Source of the DNA: a virus
IMG/VR virus record: IMGVR_UViG_3300047510_000382
Location: 1-23,228 of that record
Length of the DNA: 23,228 nucleotides
Strand: one strand, 5' to 3'
Shown here: positions 915 through 21,248 of the stretch, piece after piece
Position numbering within the stretch: the stretch's first letter is position 1
Layout: each line of letters opens with the position of its first letter
Translations under genes and position numbers: made by a program
The notes under the pieces: generated by a model
What the model was told of the DNA's origin: nothing
Databases searched by the model: none
Seen by the model: only the letters and a program-made list of their open reading frames with translations

Positions 915-930
915 TGTTTCACGTGGAACA
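915..930. promoter_or_regulatory. parS-like ParB-binding site
   Basis: TGTTTCACGTGGAACA begins on the base after the metallopeptidase stop codon. Read on the minus strand it is TGTTCCACGTGAAACA, a full match to the bacterial chromosomal centromere consensus TGTTNCACGTGAAACA. It is a palindrome with one mismatched pair around CACGTG. On base composition alone the expected number of such matches in 23 kb is about 4 in 100,000. No parA or parB gene is present in the window, so the likely binder would be host ParB or a protein encoded elsewhere on the phage. Binding is inferred, the match is directly seen. Confidence 0.75.
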
Positions 931-932
931 TA

Positions 933-962
933 TATCTTTGTAATGAATTAAGTCTATATTTG
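933..962 (+). promoter_or_regulatory. groEL operon promoter region (two TAnnTTTG boxes)
   Basis: Two Bacteroidota -7 boxes lie in the 64-nt gap upstream of groEL: TATCTTTG (933-940) and TATATTTG (955-962). The second ends 16 nt before the ATG at 979, the spacing seen at several other promoters here. The first begins 2 nt after the parS-like site, so a protein bound there could affect this promoter. Confidence 0.55.
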
Positions 963-978
963 TTACAAATTAAATTGA

Positions 979-2592
979 ATGGACACACTTGGTTATTCTC
1001 CAAAGGACCTGAAGTTTGGCGCCGAGGGCAGGGATAAACTTATCTCGGGTATCAGTAAGATGGCTCTGGCTGTTAAGAGCACGCTTGGTCCTAGCGGCAA
1101 CACTGTTCTTATTGAATCTGTTCAGCACACCCATGGGATCACGGTCACCAAGGATGGGGTCACTGTTGCTAAGTCTATTGACCTGATCGACCCGGTAGAG
1201 AACCTAGCGGTAAAGATGATGAGGGAGGCAGCTGACAGGACAGCCACGGTTGCAGGTGACGGTACCACTACAGCTATTGTACTGACCGAGGCTCTGGTAA
1301 AGGGTGGGGTTAAGTACATCGAGCCGAAGCATAACAGGACCACTGTCCTACGTGAGCTTGTGGACTTGTCTAACATTGTGGTGGAGAAGCTTAAACAAAA
1401 GAGTCAGGCGCTGACAAAGGAGAAGATGCTTGACGTGGCTACGATCTCGGCTAACAACGACGCATCGATTGGAAAGATTATATCGGAGGTGTATGGTGAC
1501 GTTGGCGAGAACGGCATCGTTACAGTTGAGCGCTCGCAGACATCTGATACATACGCCGAGACCACCAAGGGTCTGAAGATCGATAGAGGCTACCTGAGCC
1601 CGCTGTTCATTAATAACCAGAAGAAGGACGAGTGTATCTACGAGGACATCATGGTCCTAGTGGCTGACATCGAGATAGCGAACATCTTGCAGATAGAGTC
1701 TGTACTGAAACCAATCATACAGGAGGGCAAGAAGCTTCTGATCATCTCGCCGTGCCACAAGAACGTGGTCAACACCTTAGCGGCTAACGTGCTCAAGAAC
1801 AACCTGAAGGTGGTAGCTATCCAGCCACCTAGCTTTGGATACAAGCAGCACGAGCTGATGCAGGACATCGCTATCTCTGTAGGCGCAACATACTTCAGTG
1901 AAAAGACAGGGGACGATCTAAGTGTAATTACTTACGGAGACCTAGGGCACGTGTCTAAGTGTATTGTAGGTAAGGACCGGACCGTCCTGATTAAGTCTGA
2001 CCTGAAGTCCAAGCAGTCTGACATTGACGAGCGTGTGGCTCAGCTGTGGCAGGCGCATGAGGTGGCTACCAAGAAGGCTGACCGTGACTTCATCCTCGAG
2101 CGCATCGCTTCCCTGACAGGGGGCGTTGGGGTTATCTACGTTGGTGGCAACACTGACCTAGAGCAGAAGGAGCTTTACGATCGGGTTGACGATGCGGTGT
2201 GTGCGGTTCGATCGGCTATGGAGGAGGGCATCCTTCCCGGCGCTGGCAAGGCGCTGTACGAGATCGCTGTTCGCGAACTGCAAACAGGTAGCACCCCTGA
2301 GGCTGATGTGGCTGTCAAGATCCTGTCGGATGCGTTGGCTGCACCTGTCTCGCAGATACTTGCTAACGCTGGCTTGGAGCTGAATGAGATCTACGGTGAT
2401 ACCAATAAAGATGGGTGGGGGTATAACCTAAAGGGCGGTGCATTTGGGGACCTTATTGACATGGGGGTCATTGACCCACTGAAGGTCACAAGGTCAGCGC
2501 TGCAAAATGCGATCAGTGTTGCAACAACGATTCTTTCAACAAACGCTATCATCACGATGGCACGAAGCTATGAGTCAGGAACCAATGCTTGA
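979..2592 (+). CDS. groEL: Phage-encoded chaperonin GroEL (Hsp60)
   Basis: Group I chaperonin of 537 aa, close to the roughly 545 aa of bacterial GroEL. Equatorial ATP-binding motifs are present: LGPSG (36-40), TKDG (57-60) and GDGTTT (93-98), plus ILPGAGKAL near 418-426. The catalytic Asp equivalent to E. coli D398 is in VDDAV (403-407). The intermediate-domain DRGYLSP (202-208) and the apical helices with KLLIIS (252-257) and PPSFG (283-287, for the usual APGFG) are recognisable, so the protein looks intact and able to hydrolyse ATP. It lacks the C-terminal Gly-Gly-Met tail and ends in SYESGTNA. It heads an operon with two small paralogous genes and groES; its stop overlaps the next start. 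The likely role is folding capsid or tail proteins in the host cytoplasm. Whether it forms single or double rings cannot be told. Confidence 0.95.
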   Translation: MDTLGYSPKDLKFGAEGRDKLISGISKMALAVKSTLGPSGNTVLIESVQHTHGITVTKDGVTVAKSIDLIDPVENLAVKMMREAADRTATVAGDGTTTAIVLTEALVKGGVKYIEPKHNRTTVLRELVDLSNIVVEKLKQKSQALTKEKMLDVATISANNDASIGKIISEVYGDVGENGIVTVERSQTSDTYAETTKGLKIDRGYLSPLFINNQKKDECIYEDIMVLVADIEIANILQIESVLKPIIQEGKKLLIISPCHKNVVNTLAANVLKNNLKVVAIQPPSFGYKQHELMQDIAISVGATYFSEKTGDDLSVITYGDLGHVSKCIVGKDRTVLIKSDLKSKQSDIDERVAQLWQAHEVATKKADRDFILERIASLTGGVGVIYVGGNTDLEQKELYDRVDDAVCAVRSAMEEGILPGAGKALYEIAVRELQTGSTPEADVAVKILSDALAAPVSQILANAGLELNEIYGDTNKDGWGYNLKGGAFGDLIDMGVIDPLKVTRSALQNAISVATTILSTNAIITMARSYESGTNA

Positions 2593-2830
2593 TAAACTAC
2601 TTGAGGCTTACCCCGGGGAGCTGTTCCTTAGGGCTGATGGGTTTGACGCCGCTATCATAGGGGTCGAGCCAACAAAGATGGTTATTGCATACTCGTGCAA
2701 GAAGTGCATAGACCTACTGATCGAGAAGGGGTACGAGTACGTGGACGCAATTGACTACTTCGAGTTCAGCGTTAGGGATGTTGACTTCGGCGCCAAGACC
2801 CCCATATTTATTGAGGACAACTTTGACTGA
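2585..2830 (+). CDS. Small conserved phage protein, first of a tandem paralogous pair (81 aa)
   Basis: This 81-aa protein aligns along its whole length with the next gene product. Shared features are an early YP, GFDxAxxGxE, an M followed by YSxxKCI, a helix ending in DAIxxFExxVR, and a C-terminal IFIxxxFD. Similar proteins are common in tailed phages and some bacteria, but I know of no assigned function. I chose ATG 2585 because the paralogue starts at the equivalent place; it overlaps the groEL stop by 8 nt. An in-frame ATG at 2570 would add five residues. Its place between groEL and groES suggests co-expression with the chaperonins, not necessarily a chaperonin role. Confidence 0.75.
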   Translation: MLDKLLEAYPGELFLRADGFDAAIIGVEPTKMVIAYSCKKCIDLLIEKGYEYVDAIDYFEFSVRDVDFGAKTPIFIEDNFD

Positions 2831-3078
2831 TGACACTAGAGGATGTTATAGTACACTACCCCGAGCAGATGTTCTATACCCCAGAGGGTTTTGACGATGC
2901 TGTTGTCGGGATAGAGGAGGACAGCATGAGGCTGGTGTACTCGGTGAACAAGTGCATCAACATACTTGTCAACAACGGCATGGACATGATCGATGCGATC
3001 GAGCACTTCGAGCTTAGGGTCCGACACTCAAACCCGTCAGGCGGGGCGATCTTTATTCAAACAGACTTTGATATATGA
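2830..3078 (+). CDS. Small conserved phage protein, second of a tandem paralogous pair (82 aa)
   Basis: Paralogue of the preceding gene product, sharing GFDDAVVGIE, the YSxxKCI motif, DAIxxFExxVR and the C-terminal IFIxxDFD. The start overlaps the upstream stop by one base (TGATG) and its stop overlaps the groES start (ATGA), so translation is probably coupled through all four genes. The pair looks like a tandem duplication that has diverged. A single Cys before Ile is kept in both copies. Function unknown; an adaptor or regulator made with the chaperonins is only a guess. Confidence 0.75.
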   Translation: MTLEDVIVHYPEQMFYTPEGFDDAVVGIEEDSMRLVYSVNKCINILVNNGMDMIDAIEHFELRVRHSNPSGGAIFIQTDFDI

Positions 3079-3335
3079 AACCAATCGGTAAGTACATTGT
3101 AATCAACTCAGTAGTAGAGGAGGACGTAAGGACCCAGTCGGGGCTCCTGTTATCTGGCGAGGACGCCAAGGGGTTCAGGTACCAGAGGGCGGTTGTGGTT
3201 AAGCCCGGGACTGACGTGACCGTCATCAAGGAGGGGGACACCATCTACTACGACAAGGGGCATGGGTTCACTATGCTGATCGAGGATAAGCCCTACACTG
3301 TCATCATGGAGCGTGACGTGGTGGTTGTTGTCTAA
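3075..3335 (+). CDS. groES: Phage-encoded co-chaperonin GroES (Cpn10)
   Basis: An 86-aa Cpn10-family protein. It starts KPIGKYIVI, like the KPLxDRVLV start of GroES, continues with a mobile-loop-like segment (EEDVRTQSGLLLSGEDAKG, about residues 13-32) containing the SGLLL/SGIxL hydrophobic tripeptide that docks on GroEL, then an EGDTIYYDK beta-barrel motif and a C-terminal strand pair ending MERDVVVVV. Slightly shorter than bacterial GroES (about 95 aa), with the roof loop apparently reduced. It is the last gene of the groEL operon. It would cap the phage GroEL, or possibly host GroEL, during folding of phage proteins. Its TAA lies inside an 18-bp palindrome shared with the convergent gene. 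Confidence 0.88.
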   Translation: MKPIGKYIVINSVVEEDVRTQSGLLLSGEDAKGFRYQRAVVVKPGTDVTVIKEGDTIYYDKGHGFTMLIEDKPYTVIMERDVVVVV

Positions 3336-3349
3336 ACAAATTTGTTTAG
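3332..3349. terminator. 18-bp perfect palindrome containing both convergent stop codons
   Basis: CTAAACAAATTTGTTTAG equals its own reverse complement. It contains the groES TAA (3333-3335) and, on the minus strand, the TAA of the MarR-like gene (3346-3348). It could act as a compact bidirectional terminator or a protein-binding site. The stem is AT-rich, so a terminator role is only moderately likely. Confidence 0.5.
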
Positions 3350-3780
3350 TCCGCCGACCGCTTCTTGTCCCTGACGAACTGGTTCATTGACATGATCATG
3401 TCACGGTACCTGCGGTCTGAGTAGCCAACGTTCTTATGGAACACTGTGTTATTGTGTGACGCTGTCTCCGGTATCTCTTCCCCATTCAGCTTCTTATATA
3501 TGCTGTCTATCAGTCTCTTTGCTTTATACGATAGCTCGTACAGGGCTCTTCGGTTCCCCTTCCTTTCTCTAAAGGTTACCACCCATCCTTCTCTTAGGAG
3601 CCTGTCGAATCTATTGTCGTCCCAAGACAGGAGCCTGTCGAACTCCTCGAACCTGTCCCTACCGAAGTATGACTCTGAGTTTAGGAACAGCAGCACGTCT
3701 AGGTCCGCTTGGGTCAGTCCGTACTTGGTCTTTACAAAATACCTGATGACCCTCCAGTACTTTAGGTAGTCCGATTTCAT
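3346..3780 (-). CDS. MarR-like winged helix-turn-helix transcriptional regulator (144 aa)
   Basis: The only minus-strand gene in the window. From the chosen ATG (3780) the 144-aa product has an N-terminal dimerisation-type helix, GLTQADLDVLLFLNSE (21-36), a basic/acidic helix-turn-helix around residues 42-63 (FEEFDRLLSWDDNRFDRLLREG), a wing with WVVTFRERKGNRRALYELS (66-84) and a long helix (KAKRLIDSIYKKL). This is the MarR/PadR winged-helix pattern. A roughly 45-aa basic tail follows. An upstream in-frame ATG (3909) would run through the divergent promoter, so I reject it. It probably acts as a DNA-binding switch between the groE block and the late genes; its operator may be the inverted repeat in the divergent gap. 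Exact family not certain. Confidence 0.75.
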   Translation of the reverse strand: MKSDYLKYWRVIRYFVKTKYGLTQADLDVLLFLNSESYFGRDRFEEFDRLLSWDDNRFDRLLREGWVVTFRERKGNRRALYELSYKAKRLIDSIYKKLNGEEIPETASHNNTVFHKNVGYSDRRYRDMIMSMNQFVRDKKRSAD

Positions 3781-3794
3781 TAGATTTAATTTGC

Positions 3795-7149: not shown

Positions 7150-9885
7150 ATGGCAAACATAAAATTTTCGCAGTTTAATTTAGACGCCTACGATGTGAAT
7201 AATTTCATTGTAGGATACAGTCCTACTACGAATGCAAACGTAAGGATTCCAATTGCTGCGTTCAGTCAGTTTATTACGCTTACTACAACTGGCAACTCTG
7301 GTTCGGCTACTCTTTCTGGAGGGTCCCTTAATGTCCCAACATACACTCTTAGTGGGCTTGGTGGTGTTCCTACCAGTAGAACGCTTACAATTAATGGTAT
7401 AACTCAGGATCTTTCAGCCAATAGGACTTTTACAATCACTGCTATTTCTTCATTGAATGGGTTAACAAACTCTAGTCAGACGTTCGCTACTGGTACCGCT
7501 GGGACAGACTTTGTGATCTCTTCTGCTGGCTCTACTCACACTTTTAATCTTCCTACTGCATCTGCCCTCAATAGAGGTGCGCTGTCTTCTGCTGACTGGA
7601 CCACATTCAATTCAAAGCAGAATCAGATTGCGCTCACTACGACTGGTAACTCAGGGTCATCTACCCTTGTTGGTAGCACTCTTAATGTTCCAACATATAC
7701 ACTTGCTGGGCTTGGAGGTATCTCTTTGACTAGCTTGTCTGCTGCTTCTCCATTGCAGTATAACAATACTACTGGTCAGTTTAGTATGCCAGCTGCTACT
7801 TCTTTAGCAAGTGGATTCCTTACATCAACAGACTGGAACATTTTCAATAGTAAGCAGGACGCAATCACGCTTACAACAACTGGCTCCTCTGGTGCATCTA
7901 CACTTGTGGGTAGCACATTAAATGTGCCAAACTACACATTGTCTGGTCTTGGAGGTGTCCCATCTACTAGAACATTGACTATCAATGGTACTGCATTTGA
8001 TCTGTCTGCGGATAGATCTTGGAGTGTTGGTACGGTGACTAGTGTTAGCGCATTGACTTTAGGTACAACCGGAACGGATCTTAATAGCTCTGTAGCTACA
8101 GGAAGTACAACTCCTGTAATTACATTGAATGTACCTACCGCTTCCGCCACAAACAGAGGGGCTCTTTCATCAGCAGACTGGACAACATTCGATAGTAAGC
8201 AAAGCCCTATAGCTCTTACAACTACTGGCTCTGCTGGTCCTTCTACATTTATTGGAAGTACTTTGAATATCCCTAACTATACTCTCTCTGGTTTGGGCGG
8301 TGTTCCAACAACAAGAACCCTTACTATTAATGGAGTTAGTTATGATTTATCTGCTGACCGTAGCTGGACTGTAACTACAAGTGGTCAGACATTAAATGAT
8401 GTTACACTTCTTGGTAACACATCCAACCAGAATATAATAACAGAGAACGGTGCTAACTTTAGAACAGAAGATTCTGGAGGAGCAGATTTTCTTAGACTAT
8501 CAAGTGTTTCGGGTAGAGCTGTTCTTGGTTATGTCGCATCTGGAGTAGATGTTTTAATAGCAGGTACGGACCGTCTGATATGGGGGAATAGTTTAGGAAC
8601 TCAAATTCAGTTTAGAACATCTAACCTGTCTGCTGGCATAGCGCTAGAGATGCCAGACATTATTACAACAAGAACAATACCTGTAACGGTAAATGGTGTT
8701 GCTGCGGGAACAAATGGCGATATATCAATTCCTATTGGCGGTAGTCAGACTCTTCAACAAACAACAACACTTGGGAATACAACAACTGATGATATTATAA
8801 TGGTTGAGTCTTCGTTAGTTGGTGTTGAGACTATCGACTTTGATTTAACCCCGACTCTTACCACTCACTCTGAGGGAAGAGTTAGATGGAATGATTTCGA
8901 TAAGAGTATTCAGGTTGACACTGAACAGACTGGTGTGTCTGTATCTGTTGGTCATGATTTGGTTCAGAGAGTAAATAACCAGACTGGTGTAACACTGACT
9001 AAGGGAAAGGTTGTTTATATAAATGGGCAGCAGGGTGGAAGACCTACAGTTACTCTTGCCGATAATACATCTGATGCTACATCAGCATCTACGCTTGGTG
9101 TAATAATGGCTGACATATCCAATAACAATAATGGGTATGTTATTACAAATGGATTGTTGTCTGGAATAAATACAAGCACATATACTGCTGGTCAAATTCT
9201 TTACTTGAGCACAAGTGGAGATCTTACCGGAACAAAACCAGTAGCTCCAGCCCATACGGTTATGGTCTGTAAGGTTGTTTCTGTTGGATTGGTTGGATCC
9301 ATATTTGTTACAGTACAGAATGGTTACGAGCTTGAAGAACTGCATGATGTATTGATTGGTGGAACAGGGAATCCAATACTTGATAAGCAGGTGCTCACTT
9401 ATGACAGTACCACTTCATTGTGGATAAATGAATATCCTAGTAGATATTACAATTTTGGCTTCAACAACATTGCAAGCTACACTGTAAATGGTGGGGCTGG
9501 CACTCAGAACCTTGGAGCTGGAACGCTTGGAATGTCTTTGTTTAGTCCAATAAACGAGACTCTATTTGCCACATCTGGAAGTAACTATGTTTACAATTTA
9601 ACAACAATCACTTGTGAGGAGTTTGGTGGTGTTGCAAACCAGATTGGCGTAAGGGTAACATATTCTAGCTCTGCCGCTTCTGGAACATTTGATTCAATAG
9701 GTGTAGCCAGTAGAACAGGCGAGTTTGGCAGCAACTTTGCAGTACAAAGATTTCAATCAACGTTTAACGTACCAATCCTTACTGGCGGTGCACCGACAAA
9801 CTTAATCAAGTTTGAGGTCCTTATGAATAGAACTGCCGGTGGCTCTACAGGTGTTTATCTTTCACAATTAATCTTTGCTCAATAA
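7150..9885 (+). CDS. Large repeat-rich tail fibre / receptor-binding-type structural protein (911 aa)
   Basis: A 911-aa Ser/Thr/Gly-rich beta protein. The N-terminal MANIKFSQFNL...NNFIVGY is a start often seen in Bacteroidota phage fibres. Residues about 43-406 hold four diverged copies of LTTTGxSGxSTLxGxTLNVPxYTLxGLGG, at about 43, 161, 240 and 355; three are followed by RTLTINGxxxDLSAxR. Interspersed are three copies of an ALSSADWTTFxSKQ unit, ending at 157, 236 and 351. A central region (about 610-740: VQRVNNQTGVTLTKGKVVYINGQQGGRPTV) resembles a domain found in other phage tail proteins. The last 130 residues are unlike the repeats and are the likely host-contact tip. Probably a trimeric adsorption fibre; the receptor is not predictable. 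Confidence 0.75.
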   Translation: MANIKFSQFNLDAYDVNNFIVGYSPTTNANVRIPIAAFSQFITLTTTGNSGSATLSGGSLNVPTYTLSGLGGVPTSRTLTINGITQDLSANRTFTITAISSLNGLTNSSQTFATGTAGTDFVISSAGSTHTFNLPTASALNRGALSSADWTTFNSKQNQIALTTTGNSGSSTLVGSTLNVPTYTLAGLGGISLTSLSAASPLQYNNTTGQFSMPAATSLASGFLTSTDWNIFNSKQDAITLTTTGSSGASTLVGSTLNVPNYTLSGLGGVPSTRTLTINGTAFDLSADRSWSVGTVTSVSALTLGTTGTDLNSSVATGSTTPVITLNVPTASATNRGALSSADWTTFDSKQSPIALTTTGSAGPSTFIGSTLNIPNYTLSGLGGVPTTRTLTINGVSYDLSADRSWTVTTSGQTLNDVTLLGNTSNQNIITENGANFRTEDSGGADFLRLSSVSGRAVLGYVASGVDVLIAGTDRLIWGNSLGTQIQFRTSNLSAGIALEMPDIITTRTIPVTVNGVAAGTNGDISIPIGGSQTLQQTTTLGNTTTDDIIMVESSLVGVETIDFDLTPTLTTHSEGRVRWNDFDKSIQVDTEQTGVSVSVGHDLVQRVNNQTGVTLTKGKVVYINGQQGGRPTVTLADNTSDATSASTLGVIMADISNNNNGYVITNGLLSGINTSTYTAGQILYLSTSGDLTGTKPVAPAHTVMVCKVVSVGLVGSIFVTVQNGYELEELHDVLIGGTGNPILDKQVLTYDSTTSLWINEYPSRYYNFGFNNIASYTVNGGAGTQNLGAGTLGMSLFSPINETLFATSGSNYVYNLTTITCEEFGGVANQIGVRVTYSSSAASGTFDSIGVASRTGEFGSNFAVQRFQSTFNVPILTGGAPTNLIKFEVLMNRTAGGSTGVYLSQLIFAQ
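7276..8367 (+). repeat. Internal protein-coding repeats of the fibre gene
   Basis: Four LTTTG...GLGG units lie at about 7276-7434, 7630-7719, 7867-8019 and 8212-8367, with spacings of roughly 354, 237 and 345 nt. The second copy lacks the RTLTING half. DNA similarity is weaker than protein similarity, so these are old duplications. Confidence 0.7.
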
Positions 9886-12415: not shown

Positions 12416-12643
12416 ATGGACATCCGAAAGGTATCTATTGGTCCAGACTATAAGGGAGGTGCAATGCACTATATCGTTGGTCAGAAGGTGTTGAACGAAA
12501 CCAATGAGATACATCTTATTAAGTTTGATTCATCTTCTGGATCAATTAAGATTTATATCATAAATGAAAAAAGCGAGGTAATGCTGTGGAAGGAGTTTAC
12601 CCACACCGTGCCTGTATCAATCGAATATAATATATCATATTAA
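12416..12643 (+). CDS. Conserved phage protein (DIRKVSIGPDYK type, 75 aa)
   Basis: A 75-aa protein, mainly beta by appearance: DIRKVSIGPDYKGGAMHYIVG, EIHLIKFD, SIKIYIINE, VMLWKEF and PVSIEYNISY. I recall similar short proteins in Bacteroidota phage genomes, unassigned. It starts 11 nt after the previous stop, behind an AT-rich leader, and its last base is the first base of the next start codon. No metal-binding or catalytic residues stand out. Confidence 0.7.
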   Translation: MDIRKVSIGPDYKGGAMHYIVGQKVLNETNEIHLIKFDSSSGSIKIYIINEKSEVMLWKEFTHTVPVSIEYNISY

Positions 12644-13206
12644 TGAAATCACCTTTCTGCTTCATAGTAAAACCTGTGAACGGAAAGCGATACGACAACA
12701 CAAAGAAAATTGGTGGGATTGATTTTATAGTTAGCACTTCGGAGGAGGACCACAAGTTTTCTAATAGATACGCAGAAGTCGTAGAGCTTCCAATAAACTA
12801 CATCGGTCCTGTTATGGTAGGAGATATACTCCTAGTTCACCATAATGTATTTAAGTTTTACAACGACATAAGGGGTAAGCAAAGAAGCGGCAAGAGCTTT
12901 TTTAGGGATGATATATTCTTTATTGACCCTGATCAGTTCTTCATGTATAAGCGTGATGACAAATGGATAGCATACGATAAGTACTGCTTTGTTAAGCCGA
13001 TCCCAGTTACAGACTCATACATCAAGAAGCCATTCTCCGAAGAGCCTCTGATTGGTATTATGGTGTATCCAAATGGATACATGACTGAGAAGGGGGTTAG
13101 TTCTGGTGACAAGGTATGCTTTGCGCCAGATAGCGAGTACGAGTTTAATGTTGATGGTGAGAAGCTGTATAGAATGTTTGATCATCAAATAACAATGGTT
13201 CTATGA
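12643..13206 (+). CDS. Putative two-domain GroES-like protein (187 aa)
   Basis: A 187-aa protein with two halves that each look like Cpn10. First half (about 1-120): FCFIVKPVN, a strand with RYAEVVELP, then GPVMVGDILLVHHNVF. Second half (about 114-187): YCFVKPIPV, PLIGIMVYPN, then GVSSGDKVCFAPDSEYEFNV and DGEKLYRMFDHQITMVL. The end of the second half aligns well with the end of the GroES at 3075: GD, an aromatic after three residues, an acidic/Gly turn with Glu/Asp-Lys, and a hydrophobic final strand. A double Cpn10 is known in plastid Cpn20. It is coupled to the upstream gene (1-nt overlap) and the downstream one (ATGA). A GroES role is inferred; a mobile loop is not clearly seen. Confidence 0.55.
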   Translation: MKSPFCFIVKPVNGKRYDNTKKIGGIDFIVSTSEEDHKFSNRYAEVVELPINYIGPVMVGDILLVHHNVFKFYNDIRGKQRSGKSFFRDDIFFIDPDQFFMYKRDDKWIAYDKYCFVKPIPVTDSYIKKPFSEEPLIGIMVYPNGYMTEKGVSSGDKVCFAPDSEYEFNVDGEKLYRMFDHQITMVL

Positions 13207-13679
13207 ATATGATGGTAATAGATAACGTGCTGCATGACCCTAACGAGTATGTTGTCGATATATATTCTAGGCAGTTCTCTGATGTCTTTGATGGTAAGAA
13301 TTTATTCAAGGGTATACAGCCAAGGAATAACGACGAGTTTTCTGACTATGTTTTAAGCATAGCAGGCGACTCTTTTGAGGTGGCTTGGAACTTTATTAGG
13401 ATGTCTCCCTTAAATCAGGAGGAACCCAACTTCATGCACACTGATGATATGATGGGGGATATAACAGCTATACTATATTTAAGTAAGCAGCATCCTGAAA
13501 ATGATGGTACAACGGTATATGATCTCGATGGCAAGATAGCCTCTGTTGTATACTCAAAGTTTAATAGGGCTATCATGTTCGATTCAAATCTTCCGCACCA
13601 TAGAAATATATTTGAGAACTTTGGTGCTGGTGAATCATCAAGGCTGATACAGGTTGTCTTTCTAAGAGAAAAGAAATGA
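13203..13679 (+). CDS. 2-oxoglutarate/Fe(II)-dependent oxygenase-like protein (158 aa)
   Basis: A 158-aa protein with the double-stranded beta-helix pattern of 2OG/Fe(II) oxygenases: HTD (79-81, iron ligands), a following strand ITAILYLS, a distal His in LPHHR (132/133), and an Arg at 147 before the final strand LIQVVFL, placed to bind 2-oxoglutarate. It resembles the short phage members related to prolyl hydroxylases. Start overlaps the GroES-like gene (ATGA) and stop overlaps the small terminase. The reaction would hydroxylate a protein or nucleotide substrate; the substrate is unknown. A role in modifying virion proteins is speculation. Confidence 0.7.
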   Translation: MNMMVIDNVLHDPNEYVVDIYSRQFSDVFDGKNLFKGIQPRNNDEFSDYVLSIAGDSFEVAWNFIRMSPLNQEEPNFMHTDDMMGDITAILYLSKQHPENDGTTVYDLDGKIASVVYSKFNRAIMFDSNLPHHRNIFENFGAGESSRLIQVVFLREKK

Positions 13680-13954
13680 AAGAGATAAAGCTAAAAATTA
13701 TTGAGGCAGGGCATAGGGCTGTAGAGCAACTTATTAAGGTTGCAAAGGAGGAGATTATAAAGCCGGACCCGGATGATGAGCTTGCTGCGGACAGGCTTAA
13801 GAATGCTGCTGCCACAAAGAAGCTAGCTATATTTGATGCGTTCGAGATTCTTAATAGGATAGAAGCTGAGCGTGAAAGTATAGAGATGTCTGAGAAGGGA
13901 TTAAATAAAACTGAAACAAAGCAGGGCTTTGCTGAAAGAAGAAGTAAACAATAG
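13676..13954 (+). CDS. Putative terminase small subunit (92 aa)
   Basis: A 92-aa helical protein. Key stretch: AVEQLIKVAKEEIIKP (15-30), DELAADRLKNAAATKKLAIFDAFEILNRIEAER, then a charged tail GFAERRSK. It sits immediately upstream of the large terminase with a 26-nt overlap, the classical TerS place, and its size is within the low range for small subunits. There is no clear DNA-binding helix-turn-helix at the N-terminus. It would recognise the packaging site and stimulate the motor. Assignment rests on position and on resemblance to proteins before TerL in Bacteroidota phages. Confidence 0.6.
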   Translation: MKEIKLKIIEAGHRAVEQLIKVAKEEIIKPDPDDELAADRLKNAAATKKLAIFDAFEILNRIEAERESIEMSEKGLNKTETKQGFAERRSKQ

Positions 13955-16178
13955 TATCTATAGGGTTCTCGTAGACTACGTACCTAAGAGCGTTATGTCC
14001 TCAAAGAATAATGCTAAGGCTTGGAGGTATGGGTACAACGAGAAGTACGATATGGTCGTAATATCAAAGACTGGTCGTATAGGAGAGGTTGTTGAAATAT
14101 CTGGACTTGCGATTGCGCTTCCGGCAGAACCGGATAGTATTTACTCAAGAAGTGAACTAAAGGAGGATCAGTACTGGGATAGGGTTGACTTGCCAAAGGA
14201 GCTATCCAAGATACAGTCTATATTCCATTGGAACGAGATGCCTGCCGAGTTTAAGGACAGGTGGGTTGATTACATAGAGAAGCAGTTTGATTACAGGGAA
14301 GAGGGGTTTTGGTTCATGAACAATGGGAAGCCTACCTATATAACTGGGGCGCACTGGATGTATCTTCAGTGGTCTAGTATAGATATCGGGTACCCCGACT
14401 ACCGTGAAGCCAACAGGATATTTTTTATTTTCTGGGAGGCATGTAGGGCTGATGATAGATCCTTCGGAATGATATATCTTAAGATCCGTCGTTCTGGGTT
14501 CTCATTTATGTCATCTTCTGAGTGTGTGAACATTGCAACCCTTGCCAGAGATTCTAGGGTTGGTATACTATCAAAGACAGGTGCTGATGCAAAGAAGATG
14601 TTTACAGATAAGGTTGTCCCAATTAACAGCCGCTTGCCTTTCTTCTTTAGACCCATCATGGACGGTATGGATAAGCCTAAGACTGAGCTGGCATATCGGG
14701 TGCCTGCGTCTAAGATTACTAAGAAGAACATGCACAACGTGGATGGGGAGAGCATGGATGGTCTTGATACAACGATAGACTGGAAGAATACAGAGGAGAA
14801 CTCATACGATGGAGAAAAGCTCCTGTTCTTAGCTCACGATGAAAGCGCTAAGTGGGTTAAGCCTAATAACATCCTAAACAACTGGCGTGTCACCAAGACC
14901 TGTCTTCGATTGGGTAGTAAGATTATTGGTAAGTGTCTGATGGGGTCTACCTCGAATGCACTCAGTAAGGGTGGAGACAACTACAAGAAGCTGTACGAGG
15001 ACTCAAACGTAAAAGATAGAAACGCAAACGGTCAGACCAAGAGCGGTCTATACTCACTGTTTATTCCAATGGAGTGGAACATGGAGGGCTTCATTGATAT
15101 CTATGGGATGCCTGTATTCAGGAAGCCGGATAGCAAGCTAAGGGGTGTTGATGGGGCTTGGATTACGAATGGGGCGATAGATTACTGGGAGGCTGAGGTT
15201 GATTCATTAAAGTCCGATCCAGATGCACTGAACGAATACTACAGACAGTTCCCGAGGACAGAGTCCCATGCGTTTAGGGACGAGAGCAAGCAGTCTCTTT
15301 TTAACCTGACTAAGATATACCAGCAGATAGACTATAACGACTCCATGATTAAGGAGCACTACCTGACTAGGGGGTCATTCCACTGGAAGGATGGGGTGAA
15401 GGACTCAGAGGTGGTCTGGACTCCAGACAGCAGGGGAAGGTTTCTGATCAGCTGGGTCCCACAGAAGAACCTACAGAACAACGTAGTAACCAAGGGTGGG
15501 GCTAAGTATCCGGGCAATGAACACCTAGGCGTTTTCGGGTGTGACTCATATGACATATCTGCCGTGGTTGGTGGTAGGGGTTCCAATGGAGCGCTGCATG
15601 GTCTGACAAAGTTCCATATGGATGACGCTCCGGTCAACGAGTTCTTCCTTGAGTACATAGCTCGTCCACAAACGGCAGAGATTTTTTTCGAGGAAGTGTT
15701 GATGGCTTGTGTATTTTATGGGATGCCTATCCTTATAGAGAACAACAAACCTAGGATACTATATCATTTTAAGAACAGGGGGTATAGGCATTTCTGTATG
15801 AACAGACCAGATCGACACTACACAAAGCTGTCAAAAACTGAGCGTGAGCTCGGAGGGATTCCGAATACATCTGAAGAAGTAAAGCAGGCTCACGCCACAG
15901 CTATTGAGTCATACATAGAAAAGCATATAGGTATTGATATGTCGGGTACATACAGAGAGCCGGACATAATGGGGACCATGCCATTCACCAGAACATTGGA
16001 GGATTGGGCTAAATTTGATATCAACGACAGGACTAGGTTTGATGCCTGTATTAGCTCGGGTCTGGCTATTATGGCAAACCAAAAACACCTGTACGTACCT
16101 GAAAAAAAAGAGAATAAAATTAGCGTTAACTTTGCTAGGTATAACAACCACGGCAGTACAAGTCAAATTATTAGATGA
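13929..16178 (+). CDS. terL: Terminase large subunit (TerL)
   Basis: A 749-aa DNA-packaging motor. ATPase part: LKIRRSGFSFM (184-194) occupies the Walker A position but has Gly-Phe-Ser in place of Gly-Lys-Ser/Thr; LLFLAHDES (298-306) is Walker B with the catalytic Glu; LMGSTSN (337-343) is the coupling motif. Nuclease part: GCDSYD (537-542), ILIENNK (601-607) and RFDACISSG (703-711) supply the acidic metal ligands of the RNase H-like fold. About 750 aa is long for TerL, with extra N-terminal sequence (1-140). The start is a TTG at 13929 inside the small-subunit gene; the next ATG is 13995, which would lose 22 residues including YRVLVDYVPKS. It cuts concatemers and pumps DNA into the prohead through the portal. 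Confidence 0.88.
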   Translation: MLKEEVNNSIYRVLVDYVPKSVMSSKNNAKAWRYGYNEKYDMVVISKTGRIGEVVEISGLAIALPAEPDSIYSRSELKEDQYWDRVDLPKELSKIQSIFHWNEMPAEFKDRWVDYIEKQFDYREEGFWFMNNGKPTYITGAHWMYLQWSSIDIGYPDYREANRIFFIFWEACRADDRSFGMIYLKIRRSGFSFMSSSECVNIATLARDSRVGILSKTGADAKKMFTDKVVPINSRLPFFFRPIMDGMDKPKTELAYRVPASKITKKNMHNVDGESMDGLDTTIDWKNTEENSYDGEKLLFLAHDESAKWVKPNNILNNWRVTKTCLRLGSKIIGKCLMGSTSNALSKGGDNYKKLYEDSNVKDRNANGQTKSGLYSLFIPMEWNMEGFIDIYGMPVFRKPDSKLRGVDGAWITNGAIDYWEAEVDSLKSDPDALNEYYRQFPRTESHAFRDESKQSLFNLTKIYQQIDYNDSMIKEHYLTRGSFHWKDGVKDSEVVWTPDSRGRFLISWVPQKNLQNNVVTKGGAKYPGNEHLGVFGCDSYDISAVVGGRGSNGALHGLTKFHMDDAPVNEFFLEYIARPQTAEIFFEEVLMACVFYGMPILIENNKPRILYHFKNRGYRHFCMNRPDRHYTKLSKTERELGGIPNTSEEVKQAHATAIESYIEKHIGIDMSGTYREPDIMGTMPFTRTLEDWAKFDINDRTRFDACISSGLAIMANQKHLYVPEKKENKISVNFARYNNHGSTSQIIR

Positions 16179-19814: not shown

Positions 19815-21248
19815 ATGCCTGTATTATCTACCCCCGGGTTCCAGTTACAGCCAAGTGCTGAGCAGGTCCCGTTGTCGACAAACTACATTACCAACTTCAA
19901 CTTCTTGAACCAGTATCTTCCTGATACTTACGAGAAGGAGTTTGAGCGTTATGGTAATCGCACTGTAGCTTCCTTCCTCCGTATGGTTGGAGCTGAGATG
20001 CCCTCTAACTCTGACTTGATTAAGTGGGCTGAGCAAGGTCGTCTGCACACTAAGTACACAAACTGTGCTACTTCTGCTGCTGCTGGTTCTGACTCTGCTA
20101 CAATCACCGTAAACGATGCTAACGTAACTGCTATCGCTATCCGTCCCGGTCAGACTGTTTTCATTTCTGATAACACAACCGGTCTTAGCAACAAGGGTAT
20201 CGTTACTTCTGTTAACACTACAACCGACACTTTCGTAGTAGCTTACTATGAGGGTCCCGGTCAAACATTCGCTATCACTGCTACTGTATCCGTATGGATC
20301 TATGGTTCTGAGTTCAAGAAAGGAACTGTAGGTATGGTTGGATCTCTGGAGGCAGAAGATGAAATCTTCCAGAACAGCCCTATCATCATTAAGGACAAGT
20401 ACGCTGTTAGTGGTTCTGACATGGCTCAGATCGGATGGGTTGAAGTAACTACCGAGAACGGTGCTACTGGATACCTGTGGTACCTGAAGAGTGAGCACGA
20501 GACTCGTCTGCGTTTCGAGGACTACCTTGAGACTGCAATGATCGAGGCAGTTCCTGCTGAGTCTGGTTCTGGTGCTGCTAACGCTGCGCTGAACCCCAAC
20601 TTTGGTAACAAAGGTTCTGAGGGTATCTTCTACGTTGTTAACAACCGTGGAAACGTATGGGGCGGTGGTAACCCCACAACTCTGGCTGACTTCGACACTA
20701 TCATCTCTCGCTTGGATAAGCAAGGTTCTATCGAGGAGAACGTAATCTTCGTTAACCGTGACTTCTCTTTCGACATCGATGATATGCTGGCTACCTTGAA
20801 CGGTTTCAATGGTACCGGTGTTGCTCAGTCTGCTTCCTTCGGTCTGTTCGATAACGATACCGATATGGCATTGAACCTTGGATTCAGCGGTTTCCGCCGT
20901 GGTTATGACTTCTACAAGTCTGACTGGAAATACCTGAACGATCCTACAATGCGTGGTGGTCTGCCTACAGCTGCTACCGCTACTGGTACCGTAACTGGTC
21001 TGTTGGTTCCTGCTGGTTCCACTACCGTGTACGATCAGATCCTCGGAAAGAACGCTAAGCGTCCGTTCCTGCACGTTCGTTATCGTGCCACTGAGGCTGA
21101 AGACCGCCGCTATAAGACTTGGATTACAGGTTCTGCGGGTGGTGCTCAGACTAGCGACCTCGATGCAATGGAAGTCAACTTCCTGTCCGAGCGTTGTGTG
21201 TGTACCTTGGGTGCTAACAACTTCGTGTTGTTCCGCTACGGTTCTTAA
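19815..21248 (+). CDS. Major capsid protein (HK97-fold type)
   Basis: A 477-aa protein in the capsid position. The N-terminal arm (1-60) has NYITNFNFLNQYLPDTYEKEFERYG; residues about 80-165 hold a beta-rich insertion with IAIRPGQTVFISDNTTG that resembles a surface domain; the remainder has the spine-helix and P-domain arrangement of HK97-type capsids, including FVNRDFSFDIDDML and the C-terminal ERCVCTLGANNFVLFRYGS. Codon choice is much more uniform than in neighbours, with GCT, GGT, AAC, AAG, GAC and CTG dominant, as expected for the most abundant phage protein. The gene starts 17 nt after the scaffold stop behind an A-rich leader and ends before a strong terminator. Confidence 0.82.
   Translation: MPVLSTPGFQLQPSAEQVPLSTNYITNFNFLNQYLPDTYEKEFERYGNRTVASFLRMVGAEMPSNSDLIKWAEQGRLHTKYTNCATSAAAGSDSATITVNDANVTAIAIRPGQTVFISDNTTGLSNKGIVTSVNTTTDTFVVAYYEGPGQTFAITATVSVWIYGSEFKKGTVGMVGSLEAEDEIFQNSPIIIKDKYAVSGSDMAQIGWVEVTTENGATGYLWYLKSEHETRLRFEDYLETAMIEAVPAESGSGAANAALNPNFGNKGSEGIFYVVNNRGNVWGGGNPTTLADFDTIISRLDKQGSIEENVIFVNRDFSFDIDDMLATLNGFNGTGVAQSASFGLFDNDTDMALNLGFSGFRRGYDFYKSDWKYLNDPTMRGGLPTAATATGTVTGLLVPAGSTTVYDQILGKNAKRPFLHVRYRATEAEDRRYKTWITGSAGGAQTSDLDAMEVNFLSERCVCTLGANNFVLFRYGS

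Follow-up and report, generated by a model that had tools for sequence, protein, structure and literature searches.

In Escherichia coli GroEL, substitutions at the docking positions L234, V263, V264 and Y203 abolish the binding of both substrate and GroES, and the double ring is built through staggered contacts via K105, A109, R452, E461 and V464. Bacteriophage T4 encodes gp31, a co-chaperonin that works with host GroEL, has no roof hairpin and forms a larger, wider-mouthed cage for a big capsid protein (PMC6318259). Phages EL, OBP and AR9 encode GroEL-like proteins, far more diverged from GroEL than the one described below, some of which are single-ring according to passages in PMC5934643 and PMC9598537, and those of EL and OBP are reported to be co-chaperonin independent (PMC5934643). 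GroEL has also been reported in environmental flavobacterial phages (PMC5332604) and, as the product of Cellulophaga phage phi38:1, detected in infected cells (PMC13288928); its phylogeny is linked to gene order according to a passage in PMC9611531 that cites Marine et al. 2017, and a statement in PMC7185714 has it that some phages possess both GroEL and GroES. That a phage has both genes is already known and is not new; what is distinctive in the system described here is the clade-wide remodelling of the docking groove, the ring contacts and the lid, rather than the pair itself.

The locus lies in a complete viral contig record of 23,228 bases with terminase, portal and virion genes, and this whole stretch of DNA is what we call the window. 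The chaperonin genes and the elements in front of them are the following:

915-930, plus strand: parS-like (ParB-site-like) sequence TGTTTCACGTGGAACA, one mismatch to the palindromic parS consensus
933-940, upstream of groEL: second candidate -7 element, TATCTTTG
955-962, plus strand: candidate Bacteroidota -7 promoter element TATATTTG, putative operon promoter
979-2592, plus strand: groEL, 537-aa group I chaperonin (Pfam Cpn60, E=1.7e-58; PHROG chaperonin groEL, E=2e-130; residues compared with those of the E. coli protein and of 80 GroELs from bacteria)
2585-2830, plus strand: gene A, for a small phage protein of 81 aa when read from the ATG at 2585, alternative ATG at 2570 (phrog_13182, E=4.5e-11)
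2830-3078, plus strand: gene B, for a small phage protein of 82 aa that is paralogous to A (phrog_13182, E=2.1e-9)
3075-3335, plus strand: groES, 86 aa, with SGLLLSG as mobile loop and a deletion of the roof hairpin (Pfam Cpn10, E=2.6e-10)

A reading made earlier from the sequence alone had claimed an intact groEL and groES at 979-3335 in one coupled operon, and Pfam bears out the two genes, as PHROG does groEL. Every junction overlaps: the ATG of A (2585) precedes the groEL stop (2592), the ATG of B (2830) falls on the stop of A (2828-2830), and the ATG of groES (3075) precedes the stop of B (3076-3078), which makes translational coupling likely. The motif TANNTTTG, which we take to be a Bacteroidota-type promoter consensus, occurs among the 70 nt that precede groEL at 55 of 58 non-redundant loci, where 0.054 would be expected in each such interval, and was found before groES in none of the 14 testable loci. 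Its place before groEL and never before groES points to one transcript and to a Bacteroidota host, and the named relatives with known hosts, which are Flavobacterium and Cellulophaga phages, agree with such a host. The higher GC of the operon was considered as a sign of recent acquisition and rejected, as groEL exceeds its surroundings in GC in 77/77 loci.

Several neighbouring elements deserve mention in their own right. The parS-like TGTTTCACGTGGAACA is nearly kept in one relative (L002), and similar sites stand just after groEL in two others (L032 and L034); most relatives are without it. Convergent with groES is a gene on the minus strand (3349-3789) with weak similarity (phrog_12817, E=0.003; phrog_17028, E=9e-9) to a transcriptional regulator of phages, and a "repressor protein" is annotated at the matching position in the uncultured podovirus record MW202828. 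An 18-base palindrome at 3332-3349, CTAAACAAATTTGTTTAG, contains the stop codons of both groES and this convergent gene.

A scan of viral contigs found relatives encoded on at least 597 stretches, and 83 loci were read (the window, 80 contigs, MW202828 and Flavobacterium phage elemo). In 82 of these 83 groES comes after groEL on the same strand, and the one exception is cut off by a contig end; in bacterial loci groES is upstream of groEL in 79/79. Among named phages the pair occurs in MW202828, elemo, immuto and phi38:1, and its genes are adjacent in elemo and immuto. The sequence-only reading had held the presence of both partners to be less usual; instead, a clade comprising hundreds of contigs from uncultured viruses carries the pair as a rule, and the pair is found in isolates and in the literature. 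Among the closest named relatives is ctfjg026 (MW202828, from Manatee Spring), a member of the same clade in which groEL is followed by an overlapping groES; it shares the head module and is 64% identical in GroEL, 80% in terminase and 70% in a 187-aa protein discussed below, but lacks the small genes that separate groEL from groES in the window. Elemo (Elemovirus) likewise has groEL then groES, a roofless GroES and a second Cpn10-like gene before terminase; its GroEL, however, is only 37% identical, keeps L234, and belongs to an operon on the strand opposite to the head module. Phage phi38:1 (Callevirus) also has both partners and a second Cpn10-like gene before terminase, but there the order is groES, one intervening gene, groEL, and the GroEL is distant (36%).

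When 61 GroELs were placed in a tree, those of the phage clade grouped together (SH-aLRT 100), outside the bacteria and on a long stem; Bacteroides phage SJC03, by contrast, has a GroEL that falls among the Bacteroidota. The tree comes from a quick search, and as several other phages stand on long branches its deep relations call for caution. The separate clade, long stem and position outside the bacterial GroELs rule out a recent capture of groEL from a host. On the question of whether the two genes moved together, the constant downstream position of groES is joined by the distance matrices of GroEL and GroES within the clade, which are correlated (r=0.75, p=2e-4), though simple linkage would also be expected to give a correlation. 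Both observations favour joint movement.

As a chaperonin the window GroEL is conventional in its chemistry. It matches PF00118 with 199 bits against a curated cut-off of 34.3 over residues 31-527, a full-length Cpn60 domain, and is 38% identical to E. coli GroEL over its full length; its nearest relation is canonical GroEL rather than the protein of phage EL. The catalytic residues D52, D87, T89-T91, D398 and D495 are all present and invariant in 82/82 clade members, confirming the full complement of ATPase motifs noticed earlier in the 537-aa product; two salt bridges, R197-E/D386 and E409-R501, are likewise retained. What this GroEL shares with E. coli GroEL/GroES is the group I fold and the catalytic residues; the differences lie at L234, V263, V264, Y203, A109, R452 and V464, in the GGM tail, in the GroES roof and in gene order. 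Across the clade, 71 positions are fixed differently from 80 bacterial GroELs, which were picked by similarity to the query and are mostly from Pseudomonadota and Bacteroidota. The loss of the GGM tail and the PPSFG in place of APGFG had been read correctly, but as marks specific to this phage they are ruled out, both being clade-wide: the tail occurs in 0/83 phage loci against 78/80 bacteria, and P278 in 82/82 clade members. In E. coli the tail is dispensable (PMC10723157).

The mobile loop of GroES is contacted by GroEL residues L234, L237 and V264 (PMC3514286). In the apical groove of the window GroEL we find Y203L, L234E, L259V, V263A and V264A, together with unchanged Y199, F204 and L237 and a retained N265. 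These changes run through the clade: residue 234 is Glu in 81/82 members against Leu in 72/80 bacteria, residue 263 Ala in 80/82 against Val in 80/80, residue 264 Ala in 82/82 against Val in 79/80, and residue 203 Leu or Met in 82/82 against Tyr in 80/80. Judged from the aligned residues, these four docking positions, common to substrate and GroES, are replaced clade-wide. With the groove rewritten in this way (Glu234, Ala263, Ala264, Leu203), the phage GroEL would most likely prefer its own GroES, while the retained Y199, F204, L237 and N265 may still allow canonical GroES binding.

Constraint at the ring-ring interface is altered as well. In bacteria K105, A109, R452 and E461 are invariant or nearly so and V464 is V, I or L, whereas all five vary in the phage clade; the window GroEL keeps K105 and E461 and has A109P, R452S and V464E. 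Over eight contact sites the entropy gain is 1.78 bits, with p=5e-5 in a permutation against sites matched for bacterial conservation. R452 ranks top of all sites by entropy gain, and other high-ranking sites (105-110, 429-452 and 461-476) lie in or around the equatorial contact regions. This loss of constraint predicts that the protein acts mainly as a single heptameric ring, and single-ring working is probable on the strength of the alignment; alternatively, the unconserved interface could reflect two rings that meet in another way, as those of phage EL do.

The partner of this GroEL is a member of the Cpn10 family with a shortened top. The groES product matches PF00166 with 40.6 bits against a cut-off of 21.1, and the structural matches of its AlphaFold model (pLDDT 88.7) include solved Cpn10s, at E about 1e-5, and T4 gp31 (1g31). 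The barrel and the mobile-loop tripeptide (LLL in SGLLLSG) recognised in the sequence-only reading agree with both domain and model, and in the clade the loop follows G-L/I/M-x-L-S/T with invariant Gly and Leu. The roof loop, by comparison, has 5 residues in 58/58 clade GroES proteins, against 14 in E. coli (residues 44-57) and 14 (51 sequences), 13 (3) or 9 (20) in bacteria. The roof beta-hairpin is therefore absent from the window GroES; as it is also absent from gp31, Cpn10 membership stands. By the argument made for gp31, a lid of this shape would not close the cage at its top. The altered substrate handling proposed earlier is plausible, though what speaks for it is the changed docking groove together with the missing roof of GroES, and not the PPSFG loop or the missing tail.

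Between the two partners lie A and B, which are 38% identical to each other and are duplicated members of phrog_13182, a family with no function assigned. One copy stands between groEL and groES in 34/82 other loci, two copies only in the window. Only 10 of the best 80 viral loci of the family have groEL within 4 kb, and a Bacillus phage has a member with no annotated groEL nearby; the AlphaFold model of B (pLDDT 88.5) has no match in the PDB and matches only uncharacterised viral proteins. A role as chaperonin cofactors is unsupported for a family that so many phages carry with no groEL close by, and with a fold that has no PDB match. The two extra genes pointed out in the earlier reading are really there, but they represent a duplicated, generic phage family that is not specific to chaperonins, and they are probably passengers in the operon.

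A further gene bearing on the lid, missed in the sequence-only reading, lies some distance away, before the terminase gene of the head module:

12643-13206, plus strand: second GroES-like protein, 187 aa, upstream of terminase (phrog_13932, E=1.2e-21)
13929-16178, plus strand: terminase large subunit, head module (phrog_6681, E=5e-181)
19815-21248, plus strand: 477-aa virion structural protein (phrog_13704 "virion structural protein", E=2e-100)

The match of the 187-aa protein to phrog_13932, "co-chaperonin GroES", spans nearly its full length, and its homologue in phi38:1 is named co-chaperonin GroES in RefSeq. In hhalign comparisons with GroES the C half gives E=5.5e-7, with column-shuffled controls at or below 0.3% probability, and the N half E=2.4e-3 at a probability of 12%; in the PDB the C half matches GroES chains only (E=0.04) and the N half has no match. 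By these profile comparisons the C half is clearly Cpn10-like and the N half uncertain. The gene is present in 22/24 long contigs of the groEL clade, and "Chaperonin cpn10" is listed among the core genes of Pervagoviridae (PMC8776804). We consider the chances about even that it is a head or packaging protein re-using a Cpn10-like barrel and no second co-chaperonin. Its position upstream of terminase in 80/80 loci speaks for this, as does the fact that the likeness is convincing in the C half only, where no obvious mobile loop is seen; against it, the named phage records that have the gene (68 elemo records, 7 Callevirus, Panino and MW202828) all come from GroEL-carrying groups. Such a role would be compatible with a dedicated chaperonin. 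Just after this gene, 13203-13679 encodes 158 aa with a weak 2OG-Fe(II) oxygenase match (Pfam E=4e-5, below cut-off) and a match to phrog_1644 "minor coat protein", and at 7150-9885 there is a 911-aa repetitive protein that matches hardly any family; its repeats and position make it a probable tail fibre.

We favour, at a probability of roughly 0.7, the view that the phage makes a chaperonin of its own, devoted to virion proteins, which works with a roofless lid that the phage also encodes and probably as a single ring. One transcript from a Bacteroidota-type promoter would give GroEL, two unrelated small proteins and GroES; the catalytically intact group I ring, its apical groove rewritten, would pair most likely with its own GroES, whose lost roof hairpin would leave the cage top open as argued for T4 gp31. 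A single heptameric ring would be the main working form of the chaperonin. In this it would resemble mitochondrial Hsp60 and certain chaperonins of giant phages, although a co-chaperonin would take part. We infer its clients and its timing: the clients are likely phage head proteins, such as the 477-aa (51-kDa) protein, which from its gene position is likely the major capsid protein and a candidate substrate. A tentative and rather doubtful elaboration is that the whole clade relies on a self-sufficient, single-ring chaperonin that has two lids. The roofless GroES would be produced alongside GroEL and the other lid, a tandem Cpn10-like protein, alongside the head proteins, and each would suit a docking groove in which residue 234, otherwise hydrophobic, is a fixed Glu.

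The intact catalytic residues and salt bridges and the 38% identity to E. coli would fit an ordinary double-ring GroEL/GroES duplicate, equivalent to that of the host and raising chaperone capacity during infection; we judge this unlikely in view of the 71 differently fixed positions, which include the docking residues, the unconserved ring contacts, and the lost GGM tail and roof. It is very unlikely that GroEL is instead co-chaperonin-free like the proteins of phages EL, OBP and AR9, with GroES and the 187-aa protein serving elsewhere, for example in the virion. The reported independence of EL and OBP provides a precedent and L234E removes a GroES contact residue, but the window operon, unlike those of the EL type, encodes groES, which adjoins groEL wherever the locus is long enough, and the invariant Gly and Leu of the mobile loop, the co-divergence of the partners and the closeness of the window protein to canonical GroEL all speak against such a reading.

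The locus represents a chaperonin from nature that many uncultured viruses share. Its ATPase chemistry is conserved, but there have been joint changes in co-chaperonin docking, in the contact between rings and in the shape of the lid. Its comparison with GroEL/GroES would probe which features folding needs, and would also probe private phage chaperonins for capsid proteins.
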